Below are positions 1 to 48,402 of a stretch of 48,836 nt of DNA, in pieces. The notes below the pieces were generated by a model, which was given only the letters and a program-made list of their open reading frames with translations, ran no database searches and was not told the DNA's origin. Every line of letters starts with the position of its first letter. Position 1 is the first letter of the stretch. Source of the stretch: a virus; the IMG/VR virus record IMGVR_UViG_3300002144_000224, positions 1 through 48,836 of that record; one strand, written 5' to 3'. The position numbers were made by a program, and so were the translations under genes.

Positions 1-99
1 TTAGATACCTGCCAATATTTCAAAGATGAATTAGGTATTGAAGATGCAATGGAAACGTCCTTAGCAGAGGAGGCGATGGCCTATCTCTCAGAGCGATGA
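1..99 (+). CDS. C-terminal end of an unidentified gene (5' truncated by window edge)
   Basis: Frame 1 is open from the first base to a TGA at 97-99 and gives an acidic 32-residue tail ending in LSER. No family is recognisable from so little. The next overlapping frame (frame 2, 65-187) continues with sensible protein sequence (DEYAAVLFEVLVSSGFDP) and has no good start codon. The real gene may therefore run on to 187 through a one-base shift near 94; this is treated as a finding. Confidence 0.45.
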   Translation, partial: LDTCQYFKDELGIEDAMETSLAEEAMAYLSER

Positions 100-187
100 A
101 TATGCAGCGGTATTGTTTGAAGTCCTAGTATCAAGTGGATTCGATCCACGCTCAGTGTCAGTGGTAGATGATAAGGTAGAACTATGA
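65..187 (+). pseudogene. Open frame continuing the upstream gene after a possible +1 shift
   Basis: Frame 2 is open from 65 to a TGA at 185-187, and from 95 onward it reads like real protein (DEYAAVLFEVLVSSGFDPRS). The only candidate starts are TTG at 113 and GTG at 155 or 161, none with a ribosome binding site. The TGA overlaps the ATG of the next gene as ATGA at 184-187, the coupling seen elsewhere in this operon, so this frame is likely the true 3' end. Skipping base 94 joins it smoothly to the frame ending at 99. Assembly error, a genuine frameshift mutation and programmed shifting cannot be told apart here. Confidence 0.35.
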
Positions 188-300
188 ATGAATTCGATAA
201 AGCAATGGAAGATGTACTCGACTATGGTATGAAAGCCATAGATAACCTTACCGCCGAGGATTTGGCAAAAATTCAAATAATGTTCGAAGGAGCAGAATAA
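184..300 (+). CDS. Small acidic protein, 38 aa, unknown
   Basis: The ATG at 184 overlaps the preceding stop (ATGA) and the TAA at 298-300 overlaps the next ATG (TAATG), so this short frame is locked into a tight translationally coupled operon. The product starts MNEFDKAMEDVLDYGMKAID and is acidic and probably helical, with no recognisable domain. It is supported by the junctions rather than by homology. Confidence 0.6.
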   Translation: MNEFDKAMEDVLDYGMKAIDNLTAEDLAKIQIMFEGAE

Positions 301-707
301 TGGGAGACAGAGCTAACGTTGGAATCAAGACAAGCAATGGCAACACTATCTTTATTTATTTACATTGGGGTGGAATGGATAGGCATGAGATTGTTGCTAA
401 GGCTATTTCACATGCAATGCTTAGAGAAAATGACGAGTCATACTTTACACGTATCTTTGTTTCAAGAGTGATTGACACTGATTGGGATAAAGAAACTGGA
501 GTAGGCGTGGCCATCAATGAATTGCCTAGTAGTGGCGACGGGTATGATGTTCCAGTCTATGACTACACTAATAAAACTATTAGTATCCATCAAGAGGATT
601 GGACAGCTGTTGGTGCTGGTGGACTTGCGCATTACATCTCAGAGGTGTATGATAGAGATGAGTACCTTGCCAAATACGCAGTCAGGAGCACTGGAGCATA
701 TGTCTGA
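300..707 (+). CDS. Conserved phage protein of the MGDRANV type, 135 aa
   Basis: The N-terminus (MGDRANVGIK, then IYLHWGG) is a pattern I know from many unannotated phage proteins, in which MGDRAN is followed by a YxHWGG segment. The function is not established. The protein looks soluble and mixed alpha/beta, with no membrane segment or metal site. The start overlaps the previous stop (TAATG), with the purine-rich GAAGGAGCAG upstream as ribosome binding site. The stop at 707 overlaps the next start at 700 by 8 nt, so both are probably translated from one message. Confidence 0.8.
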   Translation: MGDRANVGIKTSNGNTIFIYLHWGGMDRHEIVAKAISHAMLRENDESYFTRIFVSRVIDTDWDKETGVGVAINELPSSGDGYDVPVYDYTNKTISIHQEDWTAVGAGGLAHYISEVYDRDEYLAKYAVRSTGAYV

Positions 708-1080
708 AACAATTAGTCTAAACAATAGTATAGTTACTGATAACTATGACCTAAACATTTGGGATAGGCGTGGGTATGAAACTGAATATGCTGAAGAAGG
801 GTGGGCTATTGACATTTATGCCTATAAGCATGTTCAAGACCCCTATGGTAGCGGTAGGCACATGAAAGACCATACCATCACTCTTACACCAATAGAGACT
901 AAAAGGTTGACACTAGGTTGGGACACTGACCTAGGAGGTGACTACACACCAGACGCTGATTTCTGGATAGACAAAGCAACATTCTTCCAGACCTATACTG
1001 ACATCCCCGAGCGGGTAGCTAACCTGTTGTGGGCCCTGCCTGAGTATGAGCAGATTGACGCATTCAGGGAAGTAGGGTAG
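700..1080 (+). CDS. Hypothetical protein, 126 aa
   Basis: I start this gene at ATG 700 (MSETISLNNS), not at an upstream in-frame Met inside the previous gene, because GGAG at 693-696 gives a suitable ribosome binding site and the remaining 8-nt overlap matches the operon's style. The product is acidic and rich in Trp and Tyr (NIWDRRGYETEYAEEGWAID), with no known motif. It lies between a conserved MGDRANV-type gene and the 1092 gene, in an early-type cluster of small genes. Confidence 0.75.
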   Translation: MSETISLNNSIVTDNYDLNIWDRRGYETEYAEEGWAIDIYAYKHVQDPYGSGRHMKDHTITLTPIETKRLTLGWDTDLGGDYTPDADFWIDKATFFQTYTDIPERVANLLWALPEYEQIDAFREVG

Positions 1081-19367: not shown

Positions 19368-22421
<3,054 letters not shown>

Positions 22422-22429
<8 letters not shown>

Positions 22430-22829: not shown

Positions 22830-22883
22830 TTGTACTCTCCTTTATAAAAAAAATAATAATACAAGCTTAAAGGTTGCCTAGAG

Positions 22884-25465: not shown

Positions 25466-25467
25466 TT

Positions 25468-26496: not shown

Positions 26497-26535
26497 TTTT
26501 CTCCTTTGCAATAAGTAATAATACTAACTCTTTGC

Positions 26536-26691: not shown

Positions 26692-26703
26692 ATCCCCTCC
26701 TTG

Positions 26704-28328: not shown

Positions 28329-28332
28329 AATT

Positions 28333-28644: not shown

Positions 28645-28645
28645 A

Positions 28646-29257
28646 CTATTGTACCATCTTCTCCTGCTCAGAAATTTCTTGTCTTTCCTTAATACTAACA
28701 CTTGATGATCCAGGTAGCCAAGGGAGCAGTACTCGGTAAAGTTCTTCTAGAAGTACGACATCCTGAATCTGGTACTTCTTCATCTCACTCCATGCTTTAT
28801 TATCTCCAGCCATACAGTTAATCCAAAGATCAAAACCAGAATGCTTGACCTTTGCACCAACACCAAGTGCCTGTGCAACATAGTCAAGCTTATTGGATGG
28901 AAACTTAAAGTTGGCTTTTACAATGCTCATAAGGTCCAAGTCTTTAACGATTGACGGAGGAGCCATTCCATTTTCAAGGAACTCCCTCTTGATGTGTTTG
29001 TGGTCAAAGGCAGCGGAATTCCAACCAACAAGGGCATCTGCTTCTTCCATCATGCTGTGAAGCTCTTCTAGCATAGCCTTCTTGCCATCGTGATGGACTG
29101 ACTTAAAGGTAACTGATTTCTTACCCTGCCATTTTGCACCGAAGCACATCATCTCCGTAGATTTGATGATTTGATTGATCCCAATGTTCTGGTCCCAAAG
29201 TCCCCAGGTATATACTTGCATTGGTGTAGTTTCTATATCCAGCATTAATATTTTCAT
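28646..29257 (-). CDS. DEDDy 3'-5' exonuclease (DnaQ/RNase T-like), 203 aa
   Basis: Exo I: MLDIETTP (Asp7, Glu9). Exo II: VGWNSAAFDHKHI. Exo III: YQIQDVVLLEELY (Tyr-x3-Asp). These form the DEDDy set of proofreading exonucleases. It may proofread for the phage DnaE (31014-34289), whose PHP domain may proofread as well, or trim RNA/DNA ends. Overlaps the upstream gene by 4 nt. Confidence 0.85.
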   Translation of the reverse strand: MKILMLDIETTPMQVYTWGLWDQNIGINQIIKSTEMMCFGAKWQGKKSVTFKSVHHDGKKAMLEELHSMMEEADALVGWNSAAFDHKHIKREFLENGMAPPSIVKDLDLMSIVKANFKFPSNKLDYVAQALGVGAKVKHSGFDLWINCMAGDNKAWSEMKKYQIQDVVLLEELYRVLLPWLPGSSSVSIKERQEISEQEKMVQ

Positions 29258-29544
29258 TGTTCTCTCTCTTCTAGCAATTGTTCTAGCAATGCCATCTCAA
29301 TGACTGCTAGCCTTGTCTTTATACCCTCGCTACCCATAACTACAACTATAGCAGGGTCTTTGTTAGATTTCAAGGCATCAGTCGTAGCCTTTGCCCATAC
29401 ATCTTTATTTAAAGTAAAGCTCTTACCAACTTCTTTGAAGTCAATAACAAAGTTATACCAGCTTGCATCACCCTTCTTGGTATTTCGTCCAGAGTTTTTA
29501 TGTAGCTTAGCTCCAATTCTTTTACCCTCAGATCTTTCGCTCAT
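29254..29544 (-). CDS. Possible PD-(D/E)XK-type resolvase-like protein, 96 aa
   Basis: Pattern KLHKNSGRNTKKGDASWYNFVIDFKEVGKSFTLN resembles small actinophage nucleases in which D...EFK is the metal site. Here it would be Asp26, Asp36 and Lys38, a weak match. Could equally be an accessory DNA-binding protein. In the recombination block between RecA and the exonuclease. Confidence 0.5.
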   Translation of the reverse strand: MSERSEGKRIGAKLHKNSGRNTKKGDASWYNFVIDFKEVGKSFTLNKDVWAKATTDALKSNKDPAIVVVMGSEGIKTRLAVIEMALLEQLLEEREQ

Positions 29545-29707
29545 AATGATCTCTTTTCTTTTTACTTAAAAGAGAAACAACAGAAAGATGTTTATCTTTG
29601 CACATCCAAGTCAACTCTTTTTTATCTTCATATAGCCTAAGACTACTTACTGGTTGCTTACAATCATGACAATTAAAAACACCGTTATAAACTGTGTATC
29701 TAGCCAT
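29528..29707 (-). CDS. Small zinc-ribbon protein, 59 aa
   Basis: MARYTVYNGVFNCHDCKQPV has CxxC, and WMCKDKH gives a further Cys and His for one zinc. Start ATG 29707 overlaps the recA stop; ends in basic KKKRDHYERKI. No family. Coupled to recA and the next gene by overlap. Confidence 0.65.
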   Translation of the reverse strand: MARYTVYNGVFNCHDCKQPVSSLRLYEDKKELTWMCKDKHLSVVSLLSKKKRDHYERKI

Positions 29708-30707
29708 CAATGCTTGCCCTCAACTTTTCTTGTAAAGACTTGTCTTCTTTTACTTTCTCGATAAAAGCTTCACGACCCTGAACCTTAGTGCCATCATCAA
29801 GCTGATACCAAGCACCAGTCCTAGAAACATGACCAAGCATTTCTGCAGTGTCTACAAGGTCTCCTATAGCATCAATTCCTATCTGCTCACCACGGAAATA
29901 GAAGTCATACTCCCCAGACTCTCCTGGAGCAGATGTCTTTGAGTTTTGGACTTCCCATCGAACCTTACGACCAACCTTTTGCTCAATTAACTTGTCTCCA
30001 GACTTAATCTTATTTTTGATAGCCTGATTGTCTGATGACGATGAGAACAGTTTGATAATTGTAGATGAGAAGAACTGTGTTGCATTCCCACCAGTAGGAA
30101 CAGACTGGGTATACATTGGGGTAATGTTATTCCTAGCTTGAGAGATAGCAAGAATTAATGATGGCTTCTCGTGGTTGTTTGCATAGTTAATCATCATCCA
30201 AGCATGTTTTAGATCTTTGGACTCAGCACCAATCTGTTTAGTCTGATCAAGCTGCTTTAGCTCGGTAGAATCTTTCTCAAAGTAAACCGCTGGTAGTAAT
30301 GAGCTAATGCTATCAATAACAATTAAATCTACTCCAGCGTGCAGCATTGCTACAGTTACATCTACCATATCATTTATGCTACGAGCTTCTGAGTATAATA
30401 GTTGTGAGGTATCTACCCCTAGCTTTTGTGCCCAAGTTTCATCATAAGACATTTCTGCATCTACCCAAGCACAAAGCTTACCTTCTTTTTGTGCTAATCC
30501 AATAGTCTGCATACATAGCGATGATTTTGCACTAGCTTTACTTCCCCAAAGTAGAACTTGCCTACCATAAGGAAGTCCTCCACCCAATGCTCTATTTAGC
30601 CCTGGGCTAGGAGTGGGCTGAAACTCTGTTTTAATACCCACTGCTGGGCCTAATCGCTTCCTAATCTTTGGATCTAGTTGTGCTAATGCTTCCTCTATAG
30701 TTGTCAT
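29700..30707 (-). CDS. recA: RecA-like recombinase, 335 aa
   Basis: Binds DNA and drives strand exchange. ATP site: Walker A WGSKASAKSS (55-62) and Walker B LIVIDS (Asp132). The order MAIGxS..PSPGLNRALGGG, WVDAEM, ISQARNN and a QFFSSTIIKLFSS segment follows the RecA/UvsX fold. The last Gly of Walker A (GxxxxGK) is Ala60 here. C-terminal extension ends DEAMLGHVSR-like. TAATG overlap with mazG. Confidence 0.92.
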   Translation of the reverse strand: MTTIEEALAQLDPKIRKRLGPAVGIKTEFQPTPSPGLNRALGGGLPYGRQVLLWGSKASAKSSLCMQTIGLAQKEGKLCAWVDAEMSYDETWAQKLGVDTSQLLYSEARSINDMVDVTVAMLHAGVDLIVIDSISSLLPAVYFEKDSTELKQLDQTKQIGAESKDLKHAWMMINYANNHEKPSLILAISQARNNITPMYTQSVPTGGNATQFFSSTIIKLFSSSSDNQAIKNKIKSGDKLIEQKVGRKVRWEVQNSKTSAPGESGEYDFYFRGEQIGIDAIGDLVDTAEMLGHVSRTGAWYQLDDGTKVQGREAFIEKVKEDKSLQEKLRASIDG

Positions 30708-31030
30708 TAAAAACGTACACCGTGCCTTTCTGGCCTTGTTTTATTAAAGTTAAGTTTGTTATCTAAGGCATCATCTAAAGATATGTCTGTATAACCATTC
30801 TCCACCAAACCAGCATATAAGTCAAGTGTCCTAATGATAATGTCTGCCATCTCATCAGCAACCTCTTGTTTACCTTTGTCTTTACGGATTGCTTCCATAA
30901 CCTCTACGGCTTCTGAAACAACCATCATGAGCTGTTTGGTAATGAAGATATCGTCTACCTTGTCTGGCCAAAAGCCTTTTTCTGTTGCAACCTGGTGCAG
31001 GTGTTCTGCCATCTCATCCAAGTATTTCAT
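30707..31030 (-). CDS. mazG: MazG-like nucleotide pyrophosphohydrolase, 107 aa
   Basis: EXXE12-28EXXD motif: Glu40-x2-Glu43 (SEAVEVME) and Glu60-x2-Asp63 (DEMADII). Single-domain MazG-type hydrolase of NTPs, possibly of (p)ppGpp or non-canonical dNTPs. Overlaps dnaE end by 17 nt, so it is produced with the polymerase. Confidence 0.88.
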   Translation of the reverse strand: MKYLDEMAEHLHQVATEKGFWPDKVDDIFITKQLMMVVSEAVEVMEAIRKDKGKQEVADEMADIIIRTLDLYAGLVENGYTDISLDDALDNKLNFNKTRPERHGVRF

Positions 31031-34000
31031 TTAATATCACTGTCCCATCTTTTGTTTTACCTAGTTTAAAGCGGTAAGCATTACCAGCTTTAATTTTCAT
31101 ATATGCATCAGCGAACTGTGTTGGAAACACTGTCACTGGGTGCAAATCTCTTGACAAATCAGCTAACGTCATGCTAGCCATCTTCTTACCAGCCTTCGTT
31201 ACTCTTGGTTTAAAAGATACAACATAAAGCTCATCACCACTGTACGGCAACATCTTATAGTTTAAGAACTTAATCAATGGATTAGATTGGTCTGTTATTT
31301 CATCTGCAGGAATTGCCTCAATAATTCTATTATTAGAAGCTAAGAATATATATGTCTTACCCGTCTCAATAGTTGTCTGTTCATCATCAAAGATTCCAAT
31401 AGCACCAGTCTTATCCAATACCTCTACCCTCGACCAACCTGGGCCTCTCTTGATGCTCCTAGCCATTCCCATTAGGATGAATGATCCAGCTTCATCAAAA
31501 TCTTCTATTTGACTAATCCAGGCTAAATAGTGTGGAGGAACATGGAGATTAAACTCTGGTAGGTTTAGGTATTCGTATAGGTTAAGCTTTATGTCATCAT
31601 CGCTTCTTGGATTATCGCCAAATGCTGCTGCTCCTACAAGATTCATTGCATTCAGGGCTCTTGTATTTACACCATTACCTTTTGTCAAAGTAAATTTCTC
31701 AAGCTCGCCATAGGAAGTAAATGGCCTAGCAGCAATATACTTATTTGCAATAACATCAGAGATATACTTGATGCCAGATAGTCCAAAGCGAATAGCCTTA
31801 CCCTCGATCTTAAAGTCATTGTCAGACTCATTGATATGTGGTAGTCTAATTGAAATACCCATACGCTTGGCTTCAATCAAATACTCTGTACGCACATCTT
31901 TATCTTTTTCATTATTAAGAATGCAGAAGATAAATTCTAGTGGGTAGTAATACTTTAGCCATGCTGTCCAATAAGATACTGTAGAATATGCCACAGCGTG
32001 AGACTTATTGAATGAGTACCCTGCGTGAGCCTCAAAGTCATGCCACATCTCCTCAGCCTTATTTGGAGAAAGGTATTGTGATGCACCTTTAACAAACTGA
32101 TCTTTGAACTGATCAAACTCTTTGGCATCTTTCTTCTTACCAATAATCTTACGAACCTTATCGGCTTCTGCCATTGTCATACCGCCAAGCTCAGTACAGG
32201 CTTGCATGACCTGCTCCTGATACAAGATACAACCATAGGTATCTTGTGTAAATGGCTTCATAATTTGATGAGAGAATGATATACTCTGGCGACCATGCTT
32301 ACGAGCAACGTAGTCTTTACCAATTGTGTTCATTGCACCAGGTCTAACCAAAGCGTTAGAAGCTGCTAGCTCATCAAAGTTTTTTACTACCATCTTTACA
32401 AGCAAGTTTGTGTATGGAGTAGCCTCACACTGAAAGACACCCTTGGTATGTCCAGCAGAAAGCATTTCATATATGTTAGAATCCTGTAGGTCAATCTCTA
32501 ATAGATTAATCTTTTGTCCAGTTCTATCTTTGATGATATCTAAGGTATCCCTAATCACACTTAAAGTCTTAAGACCCAGAGCATCGATCTTAATAAGACC
32601 AATCCGTTCTGCTTCTTCCATGTCTACAGCTACTACTGGAATACGCTCACCACTGCCTGGTGAATTACGAGTCTCCATTGGAGCATGGCGAAAGATAGGC
32701 TCCTTGCTTGTTACAACACCAGCAGCGTGGATGCCTGTCCCACGAATACGACCACGAAGAAGCTCTCCATATTGTTCAATCTCTGGATACTTCTCCCTGA
32801 ACCATTTGGTATTTTTAGACGTAACGTATTCATCCCAGCTATCAACCATCTTCAATACTTTGTTCACGTCAGTTAGTGGTATGTATAATACCCTAGCGAT
32901 GTCTCTTACGATACCCTTGCCACGGAACTGTAGGAAGGTTGCAATAGAAGCAACATGGCGATACTGTCTAACTAAATAATCTTTAACTTCTTCACGCCTT
33001 GTGTCCTGTATATCTGTATCAATATCTGGGAAGTCATTACGCTCTGGATTAATAAAACGGAAGAACAGTAACCCATACTTAATAGGATCAATGTCTGTGA
33101 TACCAAGAGAATAGCATAGCAATGAACCAGCAGCAGAACCACGTCCTGGCCCTACCATGATTCCCTCTTTCTTTGCCCAGTTAATCATGTTACGCACAAC
33201 TAAGAAGTATGGTCCAAAGTTCTTGTTATTAATAATCTCTAGCTCTTCGTCAAGCCTTTTAATATAATCTTCATTGTCTGCCAGACCACGCTCTGAGAGG
33301 CCCTGTACGGCCAGCTCACGGAGTTCTTTGCTAGGGTTCTGGTATTGAGCTGGTAGCAAATCAAGATGATCATTAATAATATAATCTTGTACTTTGTTTG
33401 CAATCTCTTGTGTACTTATGTACATATCTTCTCTATCAATGCCCTGCTTTTTCATAGCATTATGCATCTCTTCATCAGAAAGAAGATGAATATCAAAACT
33501 GCTAAACGATATTCCACGATCTGCCCCATATAGATAGTCAAGCCTGTCCATCACATTTTCATGTGCCTTAGACTTTTCATATGTAGCATCTTTTTGAACC
33601 TTGTTGCTATAAGTATTTAGGATAAGTTTAAGTTCCTGGATTTCTTTCTGGCCTGTGTGTGCGTGGTGGCAGTCAGGTGTGACTACTGGCTTTACCCCAA
33701 ACTCATCCGCTAAAGCTAGAAGTTGTAGATTAATCTCAGCTGGGTTATGTGGCATAATCTCAATGTAGTAGTCATCCCCAAACACATTCTTGTGCCACTC
33801 AATCTGTCGCTTAGCTTCTGCTAGCTCTCCAGCTTCAATAGCTTTTGCAACAGTGCCACTAAGGCAACCAGAAGTTACTATAAGGCCTTCCTTGTACTTC
33901 TCAAGTACTTCATAATCAATTCTTGGCTTCTTGTAGAAACCTTCTGTCCATGCAATCTCATTAAGCTTATTAAGATTTTCTAGTCCCTTTTGGTTCTTAG

Positions 34001-34289
34001 CTAAAATAACTATGTGATTGTAGACCAAGTCCAATGGCTCAGACCTATCTTTTGAATCACGCTGATCAAATCTATCTTGTGTAATATATCCTTCAACACC
34101 AAGGATTGGCTTGAGGCCTTTTTCTTTTGCGGCACGGTAGAATTCTCTGTGTCCTGAAAGAGAACCGTGATCAGTAATTGCAATGGCAGACATGCCAATT
34201 TCGGAAGCACGCTCAACATATTCTGCTGGTGTAGCAATACCATCAAACAAGCTGTAGTGCGTGTGAACGTGAAGACCGTTGTAAGACAT
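31014..34289 (-). CDS. dnaE: DNA polymerase III alpha subunit (DnaE type), 1091 aa
   Basis: Phage replicase. N-terminal PHP domain (His7, His9 in LHVHTHYSLFDG; AITDHGSLSGH; GVEGY). Polymerase core with PGRGSAAGSLL near residue 380 and the catalytic aspartates in NDFPDIDTDIQ near 418-422, then GIHAAGVV and QCEATPYTNL segments. Near complete compared with about 1160 in E. coli; the C-terminal OB region is present. No clear epsilon-binding region. A hairpin separates it from the SSB-like gene. Confidence 0.96.
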   Translation of the reverse strand: MSYNGLHVHTHYSLFDGIATPAEYVERASEIGMSAIAITDHGSLSGHREFYRAAKEKGLKPILGVEGYITQDRFDQRDSKDRSEPLDLVYNHIVILAKNQKGLENLNKLNEIAWTEGFYKKPRIDYEVLEKYKEGLIVTSGCLSGTVAKAIEAGELAEAKRQIEWHKNVFGDDYYIEIMPHNPAEINLQLLALADEFGVKPVVTPDCHHAHTGQKEIQELKLILNTYSNKVQKDATYEKSKAHENVMDRLDYLYGADRGISFSSFDIHLLSDEEMHNAMKKQGIDREDMYISTQEIANKVQDYIINDHLDLLPAQYQNPSKELRELAVQGLSERGLADNEDYIKRLDEELEIINNKNFGPYFLVVRNMINWAKKEGIMVGPGRGSAAGSLLCYSLGITDIDPIKYGLLFFRFINPERNDFPDIDTDIQDTRREEVKDYLVRQYRHVASIATFLQFRGKGIVRDIARVLYIPLTDVNKVLKMVDSWDEYVTSKNTKWFREKYPEIEQYGELLRGRIRGTGIHAAGVVTSKEPIFRHAPMETRNSPGSGERIPVVAVDMEEAERIGLIKIDALGLKTLSVIRDTLDIIKDRTGQKINLLEIDLQDSNIYEMLSAGHTKGVFQCEATPYTNLLVKMVVKNFDELAASNALVRPGAMNTIGKDYVARKHGRQSISFSHQIMKPFTQDTYGCILYQEQVMQACTELGGMTMAEADKVRKIIGKKKDAKEFDQFKDQFVKGASQYLSPNKAEEMWHDFEAHAGYSFNKSHAVAYSTVSYWTAWLKYYYPLEFIFCILNNEKDKDVRTEYLIEAKRMGISIRLPHINESDNDFKIEGKAIRFGLSGIKYISDVIANKYIAARPFTSYGELEKFTLTKGNGVNTRALNAMNLVGAAAFGDNPRSDDDIKLNLYEYLNLPEFNLHVPPHYLAWISQIEDFDEAGSFILMGMARSIKRGPGWSRVEVLDKTGAIGIFDDEQTTIETGKTYIFLASNNRIIEAIPADEITDQSNPLIKFLNYKMLPYSGDELYVVSFKPRVTKAGKKMASMTLADLSRDLHPVTVFPTQFADAYMKIKAGNAYRFKLGKTKDGTVILNEILG

Positions 34290-34320
34290 ATACCCTTTTC
34301 CGTCTAGAATTTATTAGTAA

Positions 34321-34348
34321 AGTGGGGGACAGTTTCCTGCCCCCCACT
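34321..34348 (-). terminator. 12-bp hairpin with GAAA tetraloop between SSB-like gene and dnaE
   Basis: On the - strand AGTGGGGGGCAG (34348-34337), GAAA and CTGTCCCCCACT (34332-34321) pair over 12 bp (one G:U). A moderately T-rich TTACTAATAAATTC follows. It lies 13 nt after the stop of the SSB-like gene and 32 nt before dnaE, so it may partly terminate or stabilise, lowering dnaE relative to SSB. Confidence 0.65.
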
Positions 34349-34361
34349 AATTTGAATTAGA

Positions 34362-35015
34362 TTACCACTCAACGTTAGAAGATGATGTGGATGACGCTGA
34401 GTCAAACCCCATGTAAAATGCTTCCTGCTCTGCATATGGAACCTGGCGAAGAGCCATCTCCAAAGGATATGGCGTAACAGAAGACCAGTCAAATGGTTCT
34501 GCATCTGGCAAAGATGGCAACAAGGTATAGTTTGTTTCCATTCCCTGACCATTTCGCTTGAGTTTCCATGTTAGATTGGAAATGCTTCCAGTCTCCAGAG
34601 CATACTCACGGATAGTGTTAAAGACTGTCATCTTGCTAACACCAACAGACCAAATTGCTGCATAGGGATCTTCGATTGAATCGTCAACTAATACGTTGCA
34701 ATAGAAACGAAGCTTACCTTTCCAGCCAGACTTTGGATCTTTACGGTGCTGTTCTTCAGCCCAGTCACGTCCCTCAGAATCCATCGTATCTACTGCACGA
34801 CGCTTGAAGTCCCTTGGATTAACATGTTCCTTAACTACAAGAGATAGTCCTCGCTCAACATTATAGTTGGGCGACTCTTCGTCAAGCTCTTCAATAAAAC
34901 GAAGCTTGACAGATTGTCCGTCAGACAGCTTAAGCCAACGTACTTTTGGCCCATCCCCACCTCGTGGCTTATCAACCAGTGCGTTGATATTTGCTAGTCC
35001 CGTAATGATTGTCAT
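34362..35015 (-). CDS. Likely single-stranded DNA-binding protein, 217 aa
   Basis: No clear family signature, but several features fit an SSB: it lies between primase and dnaE, it has a mixed core with aromatics (KLRFYCNVLVDDS), and it ends in a Ser-rich, acidic tail (SASSTSSSNVEW) like SSB protein-docking tails. Its own strong promoter (35052-35081) and a terminator suggest high, separate expression, also typical for SSB. Related to SSBs of actinophages by position; function inferred. Confidence 0.65.
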   Translation of the reverse strand: MTIITGLANINALVDKPRGGDGPKVRWLKLSDGQSVKLRFIEELDEESPNYNVERGLSLVVKEHVNPRDFKRRAVDTMDSEGRDWAEEQHRKDPKSGWKGKLRFYCNVLVDDSIEDPYAAIWSVGVSKMTVFNTIREYALETGSISNLTWKLKRNGQGMETNYTLLPSLPDAEPFDWSSVTPYPLEMALRQVPYAEQEAFYMGFDSASSTSSSNVEW

Positions 35016-35049
35016 TTGTGTTTCTCCTTTTTCTTTCTGTTTGTTATTT

Positions 35050-35994
35050 TTATTGTAACATTGCTGCTATTGATTTGTCAAACCCATAATTTAAACTCTT
35101 TATTGATTCATCATCCATATCACCAATATCCTTGTATTTTTTGTCTAGCCTTATTACTGAAACACGACCAGTTAGTCTTTCAACTATCCTGTTAGCCATG
35201 CCTCCTCCTGCTTCATCATTATCTGCAATGACAAAAATTTCATTGAAGTGTTGACGAAGAAGATCTATTTGTTTATTTGATACGTTGGCACCAAGGGTAG
35301 CCACAGCTGGCAATCCTACCTGGTCTAAACGTATTGCGTCAAAAGACGACTCTACCACATAAACCTCACGAGATGTTTTTACTCTATGAAGATTAAACAA
35401 TGTCTTGCTCTTAGATAGTCCATTAGTATTTTTAAACTCTTTACCCTCGACAGATCTACCAACAAAGCCAATCATCATACCATCAGGTGCGGTAACTGGA
35501 ATTGTTACCATATCATTTTTATCTGAATAACCTAAAGAAAACTTCCTTACAGAATCTTCCGTTATGCTTCTTCCAGAGTAATACCTCATAGCCCTAGGAG
35601 AATCTAGTGCTTGATTGTTTAATCTTTTAATCATCACATCATCAAATTGGATAAAGTCTGGCTTAAAGTTTAGCTTAGAGGCTATGTCTGATTCAAAATT
35701 AACAGCTACATTCTTAGTCTCAATAAATCTAACAGACTCAAAGTATGTTCTTTTTGTAACATACATTACAAGCTCAATAAGATCTGATGTGTGTTGACAG
35801 GAAAAGCAAAAGAATAATCCGCTTTCTTTGTTTACCTCACCAGCTGGTGTTCTAAAGTTCCCATGAAATGGGCAGAAGATAATAAAGTCATTATCAAGAT
35901 CTCTCTCAATATCTATACCACTTCCGATGAGAACTCGTTTGACCTGCTGCTCAGAATAGGAACCACCACCGTTCCGTCTACTCCCAAAATCCAT
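35050..35994 (-). CDS. dnaG: DnaG-type primase, 314 aa
   Basis: Zinc site CPFH...CFSC (Cys41, His44, Cys63, Cys66), then a helical N-terminal RNA polymerase domain (MRYYSGRSITEDSVRKFSLG) and a TOPRIM core with VVESSFDA (Glu215) and VIADNDEAG (Asp258, Asp260). It primes synthesis for DnaE. Shorter than bacterial DnaG, lacking the C-terminal helicase-binding domain. The first 82 nt overlap the end of the upstream gene, an unusually long overlap. GAAGG precedes ATG 35994. Confidence 0.92.
   Translation of the reverse strand: MDFGSRRNGGGSYSEQQVKRVLIGSGIDIERDLDNDFIIFCPFHGNFRTPAGEVNKESGLFFCFSCQHTSDLIELVMYVTKRTYFESVRFIETKNVAVNFESDIASKLNFKPDFIQFDDVMIKRLNNQALDSPRAMRYYSGRSITEDSVRKFSLGYSDKNDMVTIPVTAPDGMMIGFVGRSVEGKEFKNTNGLSKSKTLFNLHRVKTSREVYVVESSFDAIRLDQVGLPAVATLGANVSNKQIDLLRQHFNEIFVIADNDEAGGGMANRIVERLTGRVSVIRLDKKYKDIGDMDDESIKSLNYGFDKSIAAMLQ
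35052..35081 (-). promoter_or_regulatory. Strong promoter for the SSB-like gene
   Basis: On the - strand TTGACA (35076-35081), 18-nt spacer and TACAAT (35052-35057), with TG at positions -15/-14 (TGTTACAAT, extended -10). Overlaps the end of primase. About 37 nt before ATG 35015. Confidence 0.78.
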
Positions 35995-36239
35995 TTTACC
36001 TTCTTCTTTCCTACGAATATTCCATACATTGATAGTTCAAATTCAAAATAATCTTTGTCTCTATTATACTCTACTGTGAAGTCTGGGTCAATATCTAGCC
36101 TTGGCACATACCCCAAAATATTCATATTACTTTTAATTAAATTAATATACTCATCCCTAATCCTCATGATTATAGAATCACTATGGATCATTCCATCTAT
36201 ATTAAACATCTTTAATGGTTTATGATGGATGGTTATCAT
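35913..36239 (-). CDS. Hypothetical protein, 108 aa
   Basis: Mixed alpha/beta domain (MRIRDEYINLIKSNMNILGY then FEFELSMYGIFVGKKKVKWI), no motif. The gene ends inside primase with an 82-nt overlap, where both reading frames must be maintained. Sits between helicase and primase, so a role in replication such as a loader is possible but not shown. Confidence 0.65.
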   Translation of the reverse strand: MITIHHKPLKMFNIDGMIHSDSIIMRIRDEYINLIKSNMNILGYVPRLDIDPDFTVEYNRDKDYFEFELSMYGIFVGKKKVKWILGVDGTVVVPILSSRSNEFSSEVV

Positions 36240-36252
36240 GTATTAATTATAA

Positions 36253-37473
36253 CTACATATCTTGAAAATCCTTGTACTTAAACCATCCCTTATTGAAATC
36301 TACTTGAATATAGAAGTCTGTCATCATACCATTACGGTTCTTTCTCCAAGCAACTTCCATGACATCGCTATTTGTAGCACGCCCCATGGCAATTACCCAG
36401 TCGGCATCATAAGCAATCTGACGTGACCAAGCGGTCTGACCAAGGGTTGGCACAGTATCTAACTTTGTTACATCGTCTGGTGTGGCAGATGAGATAGCAA
36501 TAATAGGAACATTCTCTGAGTTTGACATTAGCTTAAGCTCACGAGAAAGATTTTTCATGCGAACAGTTTCATTATCTGACTTCTGGTTTGGACTCATAAG
36601 CTGTAGATAATCAACAACCACAAAGTCTGGCTTATATTGATCAATTTTTCCACGAAGTACTGATGGTGTAATTTCTCCACCAGAATCATTAGATACAATA
36701 TAGAATGGTGGCTTACCCTCAATATTTTTATCGTACCATCTTTGTAAATCATCTGGGTCTACTTCTCCAGCACTTAGTTTGCGATGTGACCAGACACCCT
36801 CACCCATAATAGTATATACACGATTACGAACTTCTGTTTCTGTCATCTCAAGACTAACTATAAGTGGAACCTTGCCTTGCTTCCAAGCCTGTACTGCAAA
36901 GTATAACGACAGCCAGGACTTACCAATACCAGGGTAGGCAAGGAATACACCGAGCTGCCCTGGAAGGATACCAGACGGCAGATAGTCATCAAATCCTGGA
37001 AGACCAGTCTTTACCCCTCTAGACCCAAGTGCTTCCCTCTTACGAACATCATCAAAATATGCAATAGCAGCCTTAATATCTGTGGCATCAAGGTCACGAA
37101 TAGAAGCGGTATTCTTCTTAAGCTCTGATGTTTTTTGAATTATGTCCTCTAAGACTTTGTTCCCAGAGTTATTCTGAATATCTGCAGCTGTGGTTCTAAT
37201 AATTTCTTTTAAGCTATCTGTCAGGTATTCAGTCTGAAGCTCATCAAGATGATGCTTAGTAGTTCCAATGTTTTGGGCTGGCTCAAAGTCTCTAAACTTT
37301 TCTACGACTAGCTCTGTTGGTGGAACTGAGCTATTCTGTTCTGCATAATTTCTAATAAACTCCCAAATATCTTTATGCGTACGCAAAAGATTATCTACAT
37401 TTGCTTGTAGCAAAACATGGATCTGCTTATCCTGAAGTACAGCAGAAATTACTTTTGACTCAATGTCACTCAT
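36253..37473 (-). CDS. dnaB: DnaB-like replicative helicase, 406 aa
   Basis: RecA-fold helicase: Walker A LAYPGIGKSW (G182-S186), Walker B FVVVDYLQLM (Asp288), and a motif H4-like LGQTAWSRQIAYDADWVIAM. An N-terminal helical region precedes. Somewhat shorter than E. coli DnaB. Works with the neighbouring primase and the polymerase. It overlaps the upstream gene by 8 nt. Confidence 0.93.
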   Translation of the reverse strand: MSDIESKVISAVLQDKQIHVLLQANVDNLLRTHKDIWEFIRNYAEQNSSVPPTELVVEKFRDFEPAQNIGTTKHHLDELQTEYLTDSLKEIIRTTAADIQNNSGNKVLEDIIQKTSELKKNTASIRDLDATDIKAAIAYFDDVRKREALGSRGVKTGLPGFDDYLPSGILPGQLGVFLAYPGIGKSWLSLYFAVQAWKQGKVPLIVSLEMTETEVRNRVYTIMGEGVWSHRKLSAGEVDPDDLQRWYDKNIEGKPPFYIVSNDSGGEITPSVLRGKIDQYKPDFVVVDYLQLMSPNQKSDNETVRMKNLSRELKLMSNSENVPIIAISSATPDDVTKLDTVPTLGQTAWSRQIAYDADWVIAMGRATNSDVMEVAWRKNRNGMMTDFYIQVDFNKGWFKYKDFQDM

Positions 37474-41193: not shown

Positions 41194-44100
41194 TTACAAT
41201 ACCTCGCTTAAAAATATATTCATAGAAGGACCTTTTGAATTTCTAGAATATTCTATATTATATACTACAAATCTAGAATCATTGGAAGATATTTGTTCAA
41301 TAGAATCATTTGATTGATAGTCTATTGATACAATGTCTCCAAGCTGTATTGTTGGCATAGCAAAAATTTTAATTCCAACAGATTTTCTTGGCTTCATTAT
41401 TTTTGAAATCATCCATGCCATTAAGTTATTTGCTTCATCCTGACTCTGAATATAAGAAGAAGAAATGTTAAACTCTTTTTTACCATAAGTTAGTCTACTA
41501 TTTTTGATATCTAGGTAGTCCTGCTTTGCCCTAACTGGCGATACGATTAGACCATCTTCAGTTATGTCTGGATCTGAAAAATTACTAACTCTATCAAAAT
41601 AATCATCAACTGTAAGCTCTTTGTCTGTTGACTGAGTAAATGTTACACCCTGAATTCTTAGATAGTTCCCAGATGTTTCGTCTAGATTAAGAGCGGTATC
41701 AGTATTATTAAAGATTAAGAACTCTGCTCCATAAGCACTTGGGATAAATCCAGAAACTGTATACCCCTTCATTTTGTTAAATGTTTCAGACATGGCTGCA
41801 TAAAGAGCTGGATATGCTTTATCATATTTAACATTGAAGTATGAACATTCTCGCATTATTGTTCCAAATTCTTCAAAATATATTCTGTACTTTGAAGGAT
41901 CATTTGTTCCTATTCCAGAAAGATAGGTAGATTGAACAGAACCGCTAAGGGCATACTTTCTAAATGACTGAGAAACATCTAAGGAATCCGTCCCAAAGAC
42001 ACTATTGACTGGTGCATCTAGCTCAAAGATGGTGTTCTGGCTATAGTTATTTGCAATAGCATATATATTTTCAAACATTGCCCTGGTGCTTCCCCTGACA
42101 AATAATGCCATGTTATTATAAACTGGCAATGGGTCTGAATCATTAACAACAGCAATAATTTTATTATTAATCATTAGATAAAATTTTCTATTGTTGGTGT
42201 CAATGTCTTCGTATTCTACAGAAATATCATATACACTTGGGTTAGACTCATTAGCCATTCTGAATTGTCCAACCATTGTTCCATCATCAACAGTGATGTT
42301 GGTTACGCCCTGCCAAAGTTTAATTGGAATTGCCCTAGTGCTATCTGTTACTGGCTCATCACTTTCTAAGGCAACTTTTCTAACAATTTTATAAAAAACA
42401 ACATTAAATAATCCAGAGCTATCCCCGTACTTTGATAAGTCATCTTGTGATAATGCCATTATTTCAAAGTAATACCCAACATTTGTTTCAGGATTTACCA
42501 TCATTCCAATTCCCGCAGATCCACCATAAATGGAGAATTGTTCGTCTAAAGAGTATTCTGGATTTAAGAAATAATTTAGACTATTGTAAATTATTTGTTC
42601 ATTTTCTTCTTGAGTGATTTTACCAATAATTCTCATTCTTGTTCCAAAGTGAGAAAATTTATTATCTAGTGGTTTATACGCATAAGAAATAAAATCTATT
42701 GCCTCTCTGGCATTGTCTCCAGACTCAAACTCAAAAGATGGACCATCAAAAATTAAAGCAGACGACTGTATTGTTCCAGTCTGTGTTGATAAAAATTTGT
42801 TAATATCTGTTTCACTGAATGATGATTTAGTTAAATAATTTTTAACAATACCATTTCTAGAAGAAGATTTTGCCAAGGAGTTATTGCTTTGGCCATATCC
42901 AGCCTTGTCCAAAGCTGTGACCTCAAGCTCTTCAATAATTGATAAAATATTTTTATAGGATACATTATCGTAGTAGTACTGTATTTCTGTTTCACCATCT
43001 TCTTGATCAACAAGGATTTCTTCTTGAGAAACATTGTACTGTGGGATAGTTTCTCCAACTTCTCTATTCAAAATAATCTTATTTGTATCATTAAAAGATT
43101 TTATAAATGAGTGAGTGCCGGATTGCTCTCTATAGGCTAATGCCAGTGTATGATTTCCTGTCCCAGCAGAAGTAAAAGTAACAACTGATCCATTAGCCTT
43201 TAGACTTAAATAGATATTGTTGGCATCAACTATTTTTACATAATATATAGTCGTTGTGTTTAGACCAGTAGGCAGTACACCATCAGTAAAAAGTTTTACT
43301 GTATCATTTTTAACTAATCCATGATCGTTTATGGGTATTTGATTTGGCTTATTTACTATGTCTATACTCGATATTTCTTTAGTTGCTGTATCTGGAACGA
43401 CTTCAGATGAGGTTATAATTTCTTCTAGATCTTCAGAAAGCAAGCTAAAAGAATTATCATTTATTTTTTGCACATAATATTTTGTATTAAGATCAATACC
43501 AAATGGTAATGTACCTGTGCTCGAAAAAGTGATCTCGTCCATATCAAATAGTCCGTGGTTTGTAACAGAAATAATTGCTGGACTGGCTATTGTAATTGAG
43601 TTTATTGTTTTTGTTATTTCTGTAGCTGGTCTAGTTGTAGCAACTCTGGTTGGAGAAACTAGTTGTCCAGAACCCTCAGAAATTTCAAGAAGGTTTCCTG
43701 CCTTAAGGCTAATATTGTCTGGAGATATTAGTGTGGTATTAAGTATTTCATCAATTAAATTAAGGATTACACAAAAACTTTCTCCATCACTAAGAGTTAT
43801 GTCTTGGTCATTATGAGCTACTGGTGTTCCAGACAGGGTGCTTGAAACCAAAAACTCTGTGGCACTAATTACTGTGTGAACATAGAATGATGCATACCTA
43901 GTTAGTCCACCAGATATTTGTTTTTCTATAAACCCTCCATCAGAGATTACTCCAAAGAAAACTCTTTCTCCAACATAAAAATTTTGAGATGAGGCTAGAG
44001 TCACTAAGACATAACCACTACCATCCTGAGTGATAGATTGTATCTCCAGTGTATCTGGAACTGTATCCAAAGATACTTTATGGGTTCCAGCTTGTGCTCC

Positions 44101-47100
44101 AGAAGATTGAATGGTTACGGCATTGCGAGAGTTAATCCTAGAATTTGCAATAGTAAAAGAATATTTGCTAATATTTTTGGGAGTAACAAAGTATTGATCA
44201 TCAACACTTAGATCTTGTGGTAAATTATCAGTTGTAACAAAAGAAATTGTATCGAATGGAGTAAAGTTATGGGGAATATCTGTTGTGAACTTTAGCTCTC
44301 CAACATTTTCTTGTGATGTGTCTGTCCAAGTTATTCCGTCATCAGATGTAGATACCTGCAGCTTATTACCAATGGCTAGCCAGTTGTTAGCATAATTTAT
44401 TTCATTAATTGTGCTAGTGCCAAATTTTGGCTTTACAGTTTTCCACTTTGTAATGTTCGTTGACCTGGACATTTCTCCATTATCTCCAGCGACAATCCAT
44501 TGACTATTGGCATATCTGACTGCCTTAATTGAATTTTTTAGTTTAGTATCTAGCTTGCTCCATGAAACTAAATTAGTAGATCTTGCTGTTTTTCCAGATG
44601 CACCAGAAATTATCCAGGTATTAGAACCGAAGTCTAGGTCAAATATATTACCAGTTTTAAATCCAGCATCTACAGCAACCCAGTCATCTGTATCAGAGGA
44701 ATAGGATATGCATCCATTGTTTCCAACAACTACCCAATTAGCATTTCCATACGCTACTGAGTTTAGGTTAGTGTTTACAAATCTTTCTACCTTATGAGAG
44801 GAGGGTGATTGAGAACTAACAAAATCTATTGGGATATAATCAGGCAAAGATAGTAAGTGTATGCTATCTTTATTCACTGCACGAACAGCATATTTTGTAC
44901 TTGAAGAAACTCCTGATGGTAATGATCCAACATCTACTATTCTAACTTGTTCGTTATCAGAAAAGCCGTGTCGTTTTACTGTAAATGTTGCAGCAAGTTT
45001 GTTGTACCTATGAGTTCCAGCCCCAGAAGATGTAGTATTGATTGCAAGACCATTACTAGTTAATTTAAGTGCAAAGGTATCATTGCTCCTGTAGATAACA
45101 TAGTAGTCTGTTGAAGTGTCGAGTCCTGTTGGTAAAGATCCGCTAGTTGTTAGCCTAATCCTATCATTTTCTTTTAACCCATGACTTTTCTTTGTTAGTA
45201 TCCCTGGCGTACCTTGAGTAATTGTAGATATTTGAATTCCACTTTCTTGGAAGGTAGCAGAAAGAACCTTCGACTGCTTATCATTAAATACTGTATAGTC
45301 TAGCCTAGAAGTCTTGATATCCCACGTATCGCCGTCAGTAGAGGTAGCTATTAGTCCACTATTGCCAACTACCACCCATTTATTATTTTCATAAATAATT
45401 TTATTAAGTTTTATGCTACCCAGCCCAGAAGCAATCTCTGTCCAAGACTCCCCGTCTTCAGAGTAGGCCATAGCAGAGGTGGTGGAACTTCCATCTATTT
45501 CATATCCAACAGCTATCCACCTGCTAGTCGATGATGGGCCATCTCCGTAAGCTACAGAGTTAAAAGAAAAGTTATCAACAAAGTCTATGTCTGTTCCTAC
45601 TACCCAGCTTTCTCCATCAACAGAAACTCTAAACTTTCCATCGTCACCAACACCAACCCATTGACCATCTCCATATGCCGCAGATGTTATTGCTCCAGCT
45701 TCTTCAATATCTATTAATACATTCATTTCAATTTTAGATTGATTATATACGCCTTTGGCTATACCATCATCAAACGTAGAGAATAAGTATTCTGAGTCCA
45801 TGTGAATACCCCGTACTGGAGCATTCGTAGTTGTATCTGACCAATATTGTGGTAGGCCAGCATTATGATATGCAATAGCAGTTCCAAACTGTTCCCTACC
45901 GTGCTTACGAACTGAACCAGATTTCATTAAGGTGATTCCACTTATTTCTTCGTAGAAGGGCTCTGTGTAGATCCTGACACGTCCTGTAGGGTAAATCTTG
46001 CCACCAAACTGTATTTTAGAGAAATAATTCTGGTACTCCCTAAGACTACTAACCCAAACATTACCTATACCAGATACGCTATATTCAATAGCATCATACT
46101 TAATGATCTCTCCATTAGCATAGAAGTATCCATTGTATCTCGCTACCCAATATGCACCCTCGCCAAAATCAATAACATTGTTGACTATTTGGCTATTTGC
46201 TACATATGGCTTTACATCAGATAGGTCAGAGTTTAGAGGAACTGCGGCAAGAGTATAAGAAGAAGAGCTTTGCTGTTCACCCTCAATTGACCTAAGAGGT
46301 GTTGTCCCAGCTACCTCCCAAAGTAATGCTGGTTGATATATCCAGTTTTGATCTTGATTAACATAGCTTGCTTCTTTTAAAGAGCCGTAGGTCTTAGCAA
46401 TATATTTTTCCTGAAAAGTAATTTTTCCATCATTAAAAACTTCTTGATTCTTAGAAGATAGCTCTACGATGTTTGAAAGCTTTTGATTAACACTGTTATT
46501 CTCAACAACCCCTAATTTATTTTGATCAAGAGAACCAAGCAGCTCTAGATCTGTATCTCTCTCTCCAATGGTTGGCATCATATAATCTTTTGACATCAAT
46601 GTTAGATTATTGTACTCATCAAAGAACATTGCAGTCTGTGTTGCTACAGCTAAATCTTGCAATACCTGAGCAACTGAGGTTTCTGGCTTTACGAAGAAAT
46701 ACGGAATAATAGGATCATCTTCTCCATCAATTCTTTTAAAGGTATAGTTAGAAAAACCAACAGAGTCAAGCAAGAATGATACTGCGTAGCTCAAGGATGC
46801 ACTTTCTACTAATAGCTGTGGTGCATTCAACGATTCAAAGTAAAAGAAAAGGTCTCTTAGGGGTAGGGTTATTTTTCTACTATTACTCGATGACTCTGGG
46901 AAACCGTCAGCATATAAAGTTTTTAAAGGTACGTGATAAGACGCTATTGAGTCTGAAAGGTTATAAATAATTTCAAATAGTTTAACTTGAAGATTATTTG
47001 AAGTAAAGGTAGATAGAATGCTATCTGAATTATTTTTATTAAAAGAATCATCAAAGTCAAATATTTCCATTGATCCATTAGATGCTAATAATTGGCCAAC

Positions 47101-48402
47101 TGGCATACCACTCATACCCAGGTCGGAAGCACTTTTATTAAAGTTAAAAGATACAATTCTATCTGTAATATTTGTAGTTAGCCTAGGAGAAAGTTCTAGC
47201 AAATCAAAAGTAGATCCAAACTTGTTCATTGTATCTACAACCACTCTTATACCACCGATGTACTCAAACTCTTTGTACTTTGTTTCTCCAGTAGAAGAAT
47301 CAAGAAAGTATTCTGGATTAATGAAATTAGTTACAAAATTTGTTTCTTCAGATATGGCTTCCTCGCCAAGAGACCAGCCATAAGATGGTGTGAATGTTTG
47401 ATATTCCGCCCCATCCCATACATAGATAGAGCCAAGGTCGTTATCATTTTCCTGCACAAAGTATGCACTATTAATTGCTGGGCTTACCGGCAGCAGACTT
47501 TCAAATGGATATTTGCCATCAAAGTAAATGCTTCCCTTATATTCATCTGGAATAATTAGTCCGTATGAAATCTCTACATAGCCATCGGAGCTAATTACTG
47601 CTAAACCATTAGACCTTGTTGACAGTGGATTAAATGATATAGCATCAGACCAGTTATTATTTTTTAATACCTGGATTTTCCAGTTAGTCGGTGTAGTCTG
47701 ATTTACGGTGCCATAAAATGGATCATTGAATTCTAATCCTCCGCCCACGAATGGCCCAAGATCTACTTCGCCAACATTGGTTTGCATCTTGACAACAATT
47801 TTATTAGTTGGAATATCTGATTTATATTTTATGAATGGGGCAGCATCATCAATATAGAATAATGCTCCAGCAGGATGATTTGCAATACCACGATCAATAC
47901 CATTTTCTTTACGGTATGATGTCCAATACTTAAAGGAGTCTTTACGACTAGCCATATAATACCGTGGCCTATTGGCTAAATCTGTATTAACAAAGTGCGT
48001 ATAGTTATCTTCAAAATATCTAAGCTTATTAATCCCAGACCTTGGACGGAATCTCCTAAAGCAATCTTCTAAGGAATAAAGAAGTCTTTCTTTTTCATTT
48101 GGCTGGGTAAAAGCAATTGGAGAATCATCGTTCTCTAGCCCACCATCAATTACAATGTCTGCATCCGTAGCACCAGTATAAAACTTTACTTGATTATTTG
48201 CATCATTTATATCAAATGACCCAGCTATTGTGGAGTATACTCCATCATCAGATGTTGGGCTTGCGGTTGGACGGTATCGATAGTTTCCAATAGTAGAAAT
48301 GTTTTCAGCAACATTCATATTCCATTCAGCAATAGCCAGCGGTTTGCTATTAATACTTGATGAGGTTTCTAGATATTGTTGTAATTCTTCATTAACAAAC
48401 AT
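41194..48402 (-). CDS. Giant tail / receptor-binding protein with seven-bladed propeller, 2402 aa
   Basis: About residues 1-880 form a beta-rich minor-tail/baseplate-like region (RYYMASRKDSFKYWTSYRKE near 147). Residues about 905-1360 contain seven Asp-box-like blades (S-x-D-G-x-S/T-W, for example SVDGESW, SEDGESW, STDGDTW, SSDTDDW, STNLVSW, STNITKW, SDDGITW), a complete propeller. Five HGL modules (HG(L/F)...GxLPxG...YYV) lie within and after it, two of them inserted between blades 3 and 4. Around 1890-2110 there is a concanavalin/LamG-like domain; the C-terminus returns to a tail-type fold. It probably binds host surface glycans or proteins. Confidence 0.85.
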   Translation of the reverse strand: MFVNEELQQYLETSSSINSKPLAIAEWNMNVAENISTIGNYRYRPTASPTSDDGVYSTIAGSFDINDANNQVKFYTGATDADIVIDGGLENDDSPIAFTQPNEKERLLYSLEDCFRRFRPRSGINKLRYFEDNYTHFVNTDLANRPRYYMASRKDSFKYWTSYRKENGIDRGIANHPAGALFYIDDAAPFIKYKSDIPTNKIVVKMQTNVGEVDLGPFVGGGLEFNDPFYGTVNQTTPTNWKIQVLKNNNWSDAISFNPLSTRSNGLAVISSDGYVEISYGLIIPDEYKGSIYFDGKYPFESLLPVSPAINSAYFVQENDNDLGSIYVWDGAEYQTFTPSYGWSLGEEAISEETNFVTNFINPEYFLDSSTGETKYKEFEYIGGIRVVVDTMNKFGSTFDLLELSPRLTTNITDRIVSFNFNKSASDLGMSGMPVGQLLASNGSMEIFDFDDSFNKNNSDSILSTFTSNNLQVKLFEIIYNLSDSIASYHVPLKTLYADGFPESSSNSRKITLPLRDLFFYFESLNAPQLLVESASLSYAVSFLLDSVGFSNYTFKRIDGEDDPIIPYFFVKPETSVAQVLQDLAVATQTAMFFDEYNNLTLMSKDYMMPTIGERDTDLELLGSLDQNKLGVVENNSVNQKLSNIVELSSKNQEVFNDGKITFQEKYIAKTYGSLKEASYVNQDQNWIYQPALLWEVAGTTPLRSIEGEQQSSSSYTLAAVPLNSDLSDVKPYVANSQIVNNVIDFGEGAYWVARYNGYFYANGEIIKYDAIEYSVSGIGNVWVSSLREYQNYFSKIQFGGKIYPTGRVRIYTEPFYEEISGITLMKSGSVRKHGREQFGTAIAYHNAGLPQYWSDTTTNAPVRGIHMDSEYLFSTFDDGIAKGVYNQSKIEMNVLIDIEEAGAITSAAYGDGQWVGVGDDGKFRVSVDGESWVVGTDIDFVDNFSFNSVAYGDGPSSTSRWIAVGYEIDGSSTTSAMAYSEDGESWTEIASGLGSIKLNKIIYENNKWVVVGNSGLIATSTDGDTWDIKTSRLDYTVFNDKQSKVLSATFQESGIQISTITQGTPGILTKKSHGLKENDRIRLTTSGSLPTGLDTSTDYYVIYRSNDTFALKLTSNGLAINTTSSGAGTHRYNKLAATFTVKRHGFSDNEQVRIVDVGSLPSGVSSSTKYAVRAVNKDSIHLLSLPDYIPIDFVSSQSPSSHKVERFVNTNLNSVAYGNANWVVVGNNGCISYSSDTDDWVAVDAGFKTGNIFDLDFGSNTWIISGASGKTARSTNLVSWSKLDTKLKNSIKAVRYANSQWIVAGDNGEMSRSTNITKWKTVKPKFGTSTINEINYANNWLAIGNKLQVSTSDDGITWTDTSQENVGELKFTTDIPHNFTPFDTISFVTTDNLPQDLSVDDQYFVTPKNISKYSFTIANSRINSRNAVTIQSSGAQAGTHKVSLDTVPDTLEIQSITQDGSGYVLVTLASSQNFYVGERVFFGVISDGGFIEKQISGGLTRYASFYVHTVISATEFLVSSTLSGTPVAHNDQDITLSDGESFCVILNLIDEILNTTLISPDNISLKAGNLLEISEGSGQLVSPTRVATTRPATEITKTINSITIASPAIISVTNHGLFDMDEITFSSTGTLPFGIDLNTKYYVQKINDNSFSLLSEDLEEIITSSEVVPDTATKEISSIDIVNKPNQIPINDHGLVKNDTVKLFTDGVLPTGLNTTTIYYVKIVDANNIYLSLKANGSVVTFTSAGTGNHTLALAYREQSGTHSFIKSFNDTNKIILNREVGETIPQYNVSQEEILVDQEDGETEIQYYYDNVSYKNILSIIEELEVTALDKAGYGQSNNSLAKSSSRNGIVKNYLTKSSFSETDINKFLSTQTGTIQSSALIFDGPSFEFESGDNAREAIDFISYAYKPLDNKFSHFGTRMRIIGKITQEENEQIIYNSLNYFLNPEYSLDEQFSIYGGSAGIGMMVNPETNVGYYFEIMALSQDDLSKYGDSSGLFNVVFYKIVRKVALESDEPVTDSTRAIPIKLWQGVTNITVDDGTMVGQFRMANESNPSVYDISVEYEDIDTNNRKFYLMINNKIIAVVNDSDPLPVYNNMALFVRGSTRAMFENIYAIANNYSQNTIFELDAPVNSVFGTDSLDVSQSFRKYALSGSVQSTYLSGIGTNDPSKYRIYFEEFGTIMRECSYFNVKYDKAYPALYAAMSETFNKMKGYTVSGFIPSAYGAEFLIFNNTDTALNLDETSGNYLRIQGVTFTQSTDKELTVDDYFDRVSNFSDPDITEDGLIVSPVRAKQDYLDIKNSRLTYGKKEFNISSSYIQSQDEANNLMAWMISKIMKPRKSVGIKIFAMPTIQLGDIVSIDYQSNDSIEQISSNDSRFVVYNIEYSRNSKGPSMNIFLSEVL

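Follow-up and report, generated by a model that had tools for sequence, protein, structure and literature searches.

The window (the whole 48,836-nucleotide stretch of viral DNA analysed here, record IMGVR_UViG_3300002144_000224 of IMG/VR) encodes on its minus strand a 2402-residue protein (41194..48402) that matches PHROG 10359, minor tail protein, with an E-value of 9.3e-62. A terminase-like gene lies on the same strand (22884-24659), genes for ribonucleotide reductase, a UvsX-like recombinase, DNA polymerase, primase and a DnaB-like helicase are found at 20312-37473, and six tRNA genes (Met, Tyr, Thr, Asp, Gly and Asn) lie on the minus strand at 17719-18287. Parts of the 2402-residue protein are given below as residues followed by window coordinates, all on the minus strand.

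The N-terminal part of the protein (residues 1-876; 45775..48402) aligns at ~51-55% identity with insert-less relatives in IMG/VR. These relatives cover residues 1 to ~876 and ~1834 onward, and the complete ones are only ~1420-1560 residues long. The C-terminal part (residues 1834-2402; 41197..42903) is delimited by the same hub alignment and by a model of one relative (L013). Among isolated phages, Streptomyces phages account for 127 of the 155 matching records (distant minor tail proteins of ~22-26% identity among the matches listed), and in LukeCage the hub-related gene stands two places after that for the tape measure protein. Both ends of the L013 model, a low-confidence one (mean pLDDT 55.7), resemble gp27-type hubs, namely T4 gp27 (Z 12.2, 46..1079), the P1 hub (Z 12.4, 23..1079) and the T5 tip chain (Z 10.1, 32..1079), while its middle domain (model 487..858) resembles CBM66 (Z 13.7, 156 of 162 residues). 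The CBM66-like domain maps to residues ~848-2181 of the window protein, where it is built from ~848-876 and 1834 to ~2181 with the insert loop inside it. As modelled, the window protein is the central tail-tip hub, of the gp27/T5 pb3 type, with the gp27 fold contributed by its N- and C-terminal parts. A PDB search with the hub profile returned nothing but ribosomal proteins, at E 0.023 and above. The one contig recovered by a genome scan for the hub belongs to a MAG named Chitinophagaceae and is not decisive as to the host; the isolated relatives point to Actinobacteria as the host group, and the uncultured phages that bear this hub are probably a large actinobacterial group.

Between the two hub parts, where most of the hubs compared have only a short loop, lies the insert (residues 877-1833; 42904..45774). 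It comprises a propeller, several modules with an HGL, HGF or HNF motif (HGL modules) and one module of another kind, the SG module. Loop length was taken as the stretch between fixed hub anchors (window residues 870 and 1840) in 161 hub ORFs among the matches listed, which are distinct strings from best-80 lists, window included, and not a measure of prevalence; some are cut at contig ends and some are differently bounded ORFs of one contig. The loop has at most 45 residues in 150 of these ORFs, 46-200 in six, 201-600 in two and more than 600 in three. All three of the longest loops (the window, L168 and L236) hold a propeller, and both loops of 201-600 residues hold HGL modules and no propeller. 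A single SG module is present in each of five loops (L067, L070, L111, L119 and L124, of which L067 and L119 are near-identical), the contents of the 46-200 class resting on five of its six members, with L247 left out. The loop of L095 has HGL modules ahead of the SG module, and that of L258 has HGL modules and no blades. Judged from the hub alignment, the whole propeller region is a guest of ~957 residues in a hub loop, which the original prediction had overlooked. The series of loop lengths, drawn from best matches and not from a rooted tree, suggests that the loop may have grown stepwise.

The propeller is the first part of the guest, and its blades fall into two blocks delimited by a blade HMM, a structural model and fold comparison: blades 1-3 (residues 903-1036; 45295..45696) and blades 4-7 (residues 1207-1366; 44305..44784). 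Seven [ST]x[DN]...W motifs are present, at residues 927, 981, 1021, 1235, 1275, 1314 and 1353. The blade HMM, whose source is 81 blade strings from 12 proteins, all of them stand-alone propellers of other phages, recognises seven blades, and no more, in the window protein (903-934, 947-976, 998-1032, 1208-1241, 1248-1282, 1290-1323 and 1327-1361), the second of which is weak (2.6 bits); 1000 shuffles of the window protein gave a single hit above 5 bits, in one shuffle. A candidate eighth blade at 862-900 was ruled out, as residues 863-876 align with propeller-less hubs and the blade HMM is silent there. A Pfam ILEI match to blades 5-7 (0.00029, below the curated cut-off) was taken as a chance repeat match.

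In an alignment with 17 contiguous seven-bladed phage propellers, picked from a longer list as single-ring proteins or rings, all 17 lack residues over two HGL modules of the window protein; the gap runs from ~1034 to 1207 and is stable across all four alignment settings. An AlphaFold2 model of residues 860-1850, with these 17 propellers and L168 as input alignment, has a mean pLDDT of 72 (mostly 75-96 in the propeller blocks, 64-89 in the two inner HGL modules and below 50 at the end of the insert). The modelled propeller matches the seven-bladed designer protein 7big with Z 29.8 and rmsd 2.4 over 264 of 286 residues (model 43..499), and is thus predicted to be a closed seven-bladed ring; ring closure and homology are not independent here, since the model was helped by the relatives in its alignment. 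These results bear out the original prediction, which had placed seven blades at about residues 905-1360 (blade HMM and motif positions agree, and the coordinates are right), had proposed a closed propeller (the model is closed and its blade count is seven, so that neither an open ring nor another count was seen) and had nested a two-module insertion between blades 3 and 4, exactly where the contiguous propellers have their gap. Foldseek with the whole insert model places the phi92 endosialidase at rank 2 and the K1F endosialidase at rank 12, with low global TM-scores, as expected for a multi-domain model, and Ycf48 (5ojr_D) reaches a TMt of 0.71. A PDB sequence search with the propeller gave nothing beyond Ycf48 at E 0.37-0.62.

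Asp-box propellers occur in other arrangements in other phages. Three tandem genes on one contig (L091:1027-4303) code for similar Asp-box propellers, each with seven blades and ~370-380 residues, and other contigs (L188 and L197) have single 1736-residue ORFs in which ~40 Asp-box-like motifs seem to make up several successive rings. In the Actinomycetia phage DSL-LC01 a 290-residue seven-bladed propeller annotated as a photosystem II assembly factor (L082:5968-6840) has collagen-like neighbours, and HGL modules are present in the giant gene adjoining it.

The HGL modules of the window protein have their motifs at residues 1074, 1145, 1378, 1616 and 1694. H1 (residues 1053-1133; 45004..45246; 98.9 bits with an HGL HMM) and H2 (residues 1134-1206; 44785..45003; 75.4 bits) lie between blades 3 and 4. 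H3 (residues 1367-1446; 44065..44304) follows blade 7, and after it come a degenerate HGL-like module, Hx (residues 1447-1540; 43783..44064), the first half of the SG module (residues 1541-1594; 43621..43782), H4 and H5 nested in that module (residues 1595-1758; 43129..43620; 90.5 and 94.1 bits), and the second half of the SG module with the return to the hub (residues 1759-1833; 42904..43128), which is placed by the SG alignment and poorly modelled. The HMM itself delimits five clear modules (1055-1134, 1134-1206, 1376-1444, 1596-1675 and 1673-1753) and a marginal sixth in Hx (1499-1530), which scores 3.9 bits here and 17.2 bits in its L168 homologue. It was built partly from H1, H2, H4 and H5 of the window; H3, absent from the training set, scores 25.3 bits. 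Two modules between blades 3 and 4 and three more after the propeller had been foreseen, and the HMM gives two, then three or four. The HGL modules are nested at further places besides the propeller, which had gone unnoticed. The SG module is contiguous in six hubs (L067, L070, L111, L119, L124 and L095), to which its first half was aligned. H4-H5 interrupt it in the window, as H4 does in L168, and L236 has H4 at this position too. In L111 an HGL module occurs at a different hub site (ORF residues 646-719). A sequence search of the PDB with single stretches holding HGL pairs gave no useful match.

Two metagenomic hubs, L168 and L236 (the ORF of the latter is cut at its 5' end), have their parts in the order seen in the window: a block of three blades, a pair of HGL modules, a block of four blades, and then more modules. 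An assembly artefact is ruled out by these two other contigs of the same design. The blade HMM finds seven of seven blades in L236, and blade 2 is weak in L168, as in the window. A comparison of modules among relatives, proposed as a check on the original prediction, shows that all three propeller-bearing hubs found keep seven blades and two inner modules while the outer modules vary. An HGL module is nested within H3 in L168 (8649-8876) and in L236 (ORF +1, ~residues 1082-1153) and is absent from the window; because H3 is itself an HGL module, members of this family can be guests of one another. H5 is found in the window and not in L168 or L236. As L236 is closer to the window than L168 by hub identity, the simplest account would be that the window line lost the module nested in H3 and gained H5. 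The nested architecture of the 2402-residue protein is firm.

Identity between the window and L236 is 49% in the insert vs 72-78% in the hub, and between the window and L168 it is 37% vs 60-63%; the neighbouring tail genes of the window and L168 are likewise no more than 51-59% identical, and the helicase gene is 80% identical. In these three sequences the insert diverges faster than the hub. It could be imagined that a permissive loop carries the insert passively, as extra folded mass with no adsorption function, given that the loop accepts many lengths and holds next to nothing in most relatives. We regard this as highly improbable, as in all three hubs the reading frame has stayed open and the 3+2+4 design intact, even with inserts that share no more than 36-49% identity. 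Scanning with the propeller alone found no relative, a pair of whole-insert queries recovered only the L168 contig and that of L111 (as L227), and L236 was recovered only by a query joining the hub end and the blades.

The HGL module has a counterpart in the phage endosialidases. In the K1F tailspike gp17, Pfam places End_beta_barrel (PF12195, 424-506) inside End_beta_propel (PF12217, 313-754), and the HGL HMM picks residues 437-490 of this protein (E 1.8e-5, with one of 2000 shuffles scoring as high). When a profile of 14 HGL modules was compared with the PDB, the best match was the endosialidase 4hiz, at a non-significant E of 0.087; with a second profile, of 16 modules, the top five matches were all endosialidase sequences (E 0.081-0.38). 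Alignment by hhalign of the 16 HGL modules with seven endosialidase-type barrels gave 94.9% probability, E 4.7e-8 and a score of 43.4 over 51 columns of 18% identity, the best of 300 column-shuffled decoys scoring 18.5 and the reversed profile 11.9. Three of 14 single HGL modules match PF12195 at E up to 0.1 (best 0.0013), as does L258 (0.0011), all below the Pfam cut-off. At the level of profiles, the HGL module is shown to be homologous to the phage endosialidase beta-barrel. An endosialidase-type beta-barrel also occurs outside Escherichia phages, in tail fiber protein H of Mannheimia phage vB_MhM_587AP1 (L235).

In K1F, the available part of the source places one of three polysialic-acid sites in the barrel and describes barrel-loop changes that separate hosts (PMC12632334). 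A binding function may be common to the HGL module and the endosialidase barrel, as their homology suggests. HGL modules are also present in the RHph_N28_2 putative tail protein and in a PHROG of major tail proteins; as host binding is less obvious in such proteins, a merely structural role of the module is possible. An HGL-like module lies inside an nhL-annotated protein of Podoviridae sp. ctkAd229 (L085:4545-6932), which may be another propeller, unrelated to this one, that hosts the same guest. The HGL module occurs in structural proteins of many unrelated phages, mostly with no function assigned. As a tentative generalization, it might be a mobile barrel that binds glycans, belongs to the same family as the polysialic-acid barrel of endosialidases and sits as a guest in the loops of other domains and of its own kind; phages would use it to build nested adhesins of four levels: hub, CBM66-like domain, seven-bladed propeller and barrels.

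The endosialidase layout, in which barrels lie within a propeller, also invites the view that the propeller is an enzyme, an Asp-box depolymerase of the GH58, GH33 or GH74 kind whose barrels hold the substrate, and phage endosialidase and GH74 Asp-box propellers are among the top Foldseek matches. We consider this clearly improbable. Pfam detects no glycosidase family in the window protein (E up to 1, PF12217 included) or in L168 or L236 (E up to 0.1), whereas the K1F tailspike gives End_beta_propel at 1.8e-222. The propeller of endosialidases has six blades, vs seven here. The blades of the insert are mostly short and regular (~40 residues), and its 294 propeller positions include 7 Arg and no His; the K1F catalytic set, in the available part of the source, includes H350 and three Arg (PMC12632334). 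Since Pfam finds no glycosidase family in the proteins of the window, L168 and L236, binding is preferred over cutting.

Binding could alternatively be directed at another tail protein, a fibre or a collagen-like protein, with the propeller as its docking platform and no contact with the host. The stand-alone propeller gene of DSL-LC01 sits among collagen-like genes, and phage propellers are also found as the tandem genes of L091 and in cyanophage baseplate wedge initiators; such docking would leave unexplained both the homology of the HGL module to a glycan-binding barrel and the turnover of modules outside the propeller, and we consider it unlikely.

The reading that we favour, and hold to be rather likely, is that the propeller and its modules form a non-catalytic host-glycan-binding adhesin nested in the tail hub; we infer receptor binding only from homology and the place of the insert. 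Comparison of the hubs shows that a short hub loop has taken up the ~957-residue insert, a propeller with two HGL modules and then more, some of them inside an SG module. The propeller would serve as a rigid platform that holds the barrels away from the hub. The two barrels would leave it where blades 3 and 4 connect; as a rule, a propeller has all connections of this kind on the same face. The barrels, and perhaps also the propeller face and the CBM66-like host domain, would bind host-cell polysaccharide without cutting it. A trimeric hub would display three copies of the insert and so provide avidity, and binding would be tuned as barrels outside the propeller are gained or lost. With this adhesin reading, the HGL module, which belongs to the structural proteins of many phages, gains a testable function. 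The guests in this one hub loop range in size from almost nothing through an SG module and HGL modules to a propeller with HGL modules, and the loop may be where the host range of a large uncultured, probably actinobacterial phage group is set.

The insert resembles several known systems. Like the endosialidase tailspikes (K1F gp17 and phi92; PF12217 and PF12195), it is an Asp-box propeller with a homologous nested beta-barrel. Endosialidases have one barrel and a catalytic propeller in a separate tailspike, whereas here there are two barrels, seven blades and no glycosidase signature, all nested in the tail hub; by sequence, the K1F barrel seems to lie within a blade, while those of the window lie between blades. 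As in the evolved Dit and Tal proteins of siphophages of lactic acid bacteria, a guest domain occupies a tail-tip loop here, and relatives of the window hub lack this guest. The available part of the source describes carbohydrate-binding modules inserted in tail-tip loops, including the gp27-like part of Tal (PMC7291167). The guest here, in contrast, is a propeller with modules, 957 residues in all, within a CBM66-like host domain. Propellers are also found in Gp45 of Staphylococcus phage phi11 and gp131C of phiKZ, receptor-binding or putative receptor-binding proteins with five and seven blades, respectively; unlike the propeller of the window, they are separate proteins and not hub inserts, and the available part of the source mentions nested barrels for neither (PMC4901313). 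The Ycf48-like and stand-alone phage propellers (DSL-LC01, L091) share the blade type and the seven blades but form contiguous rings in which no module separates blade 3 from blade 4. Among the papers listed in searches of the open-licence literature, none deals with a barrel-bearing propeller inside a siphophage hub. Propellers as receptor-binding parts, carbohydrate-binding modules in tail-tip loops and a barrel nested in an Asp-box propeller were already known; what appears to be new is that they are combined, that a ring of seven blades carries two barrels, and that the common HGL module is linked to the endosialidase barrel.
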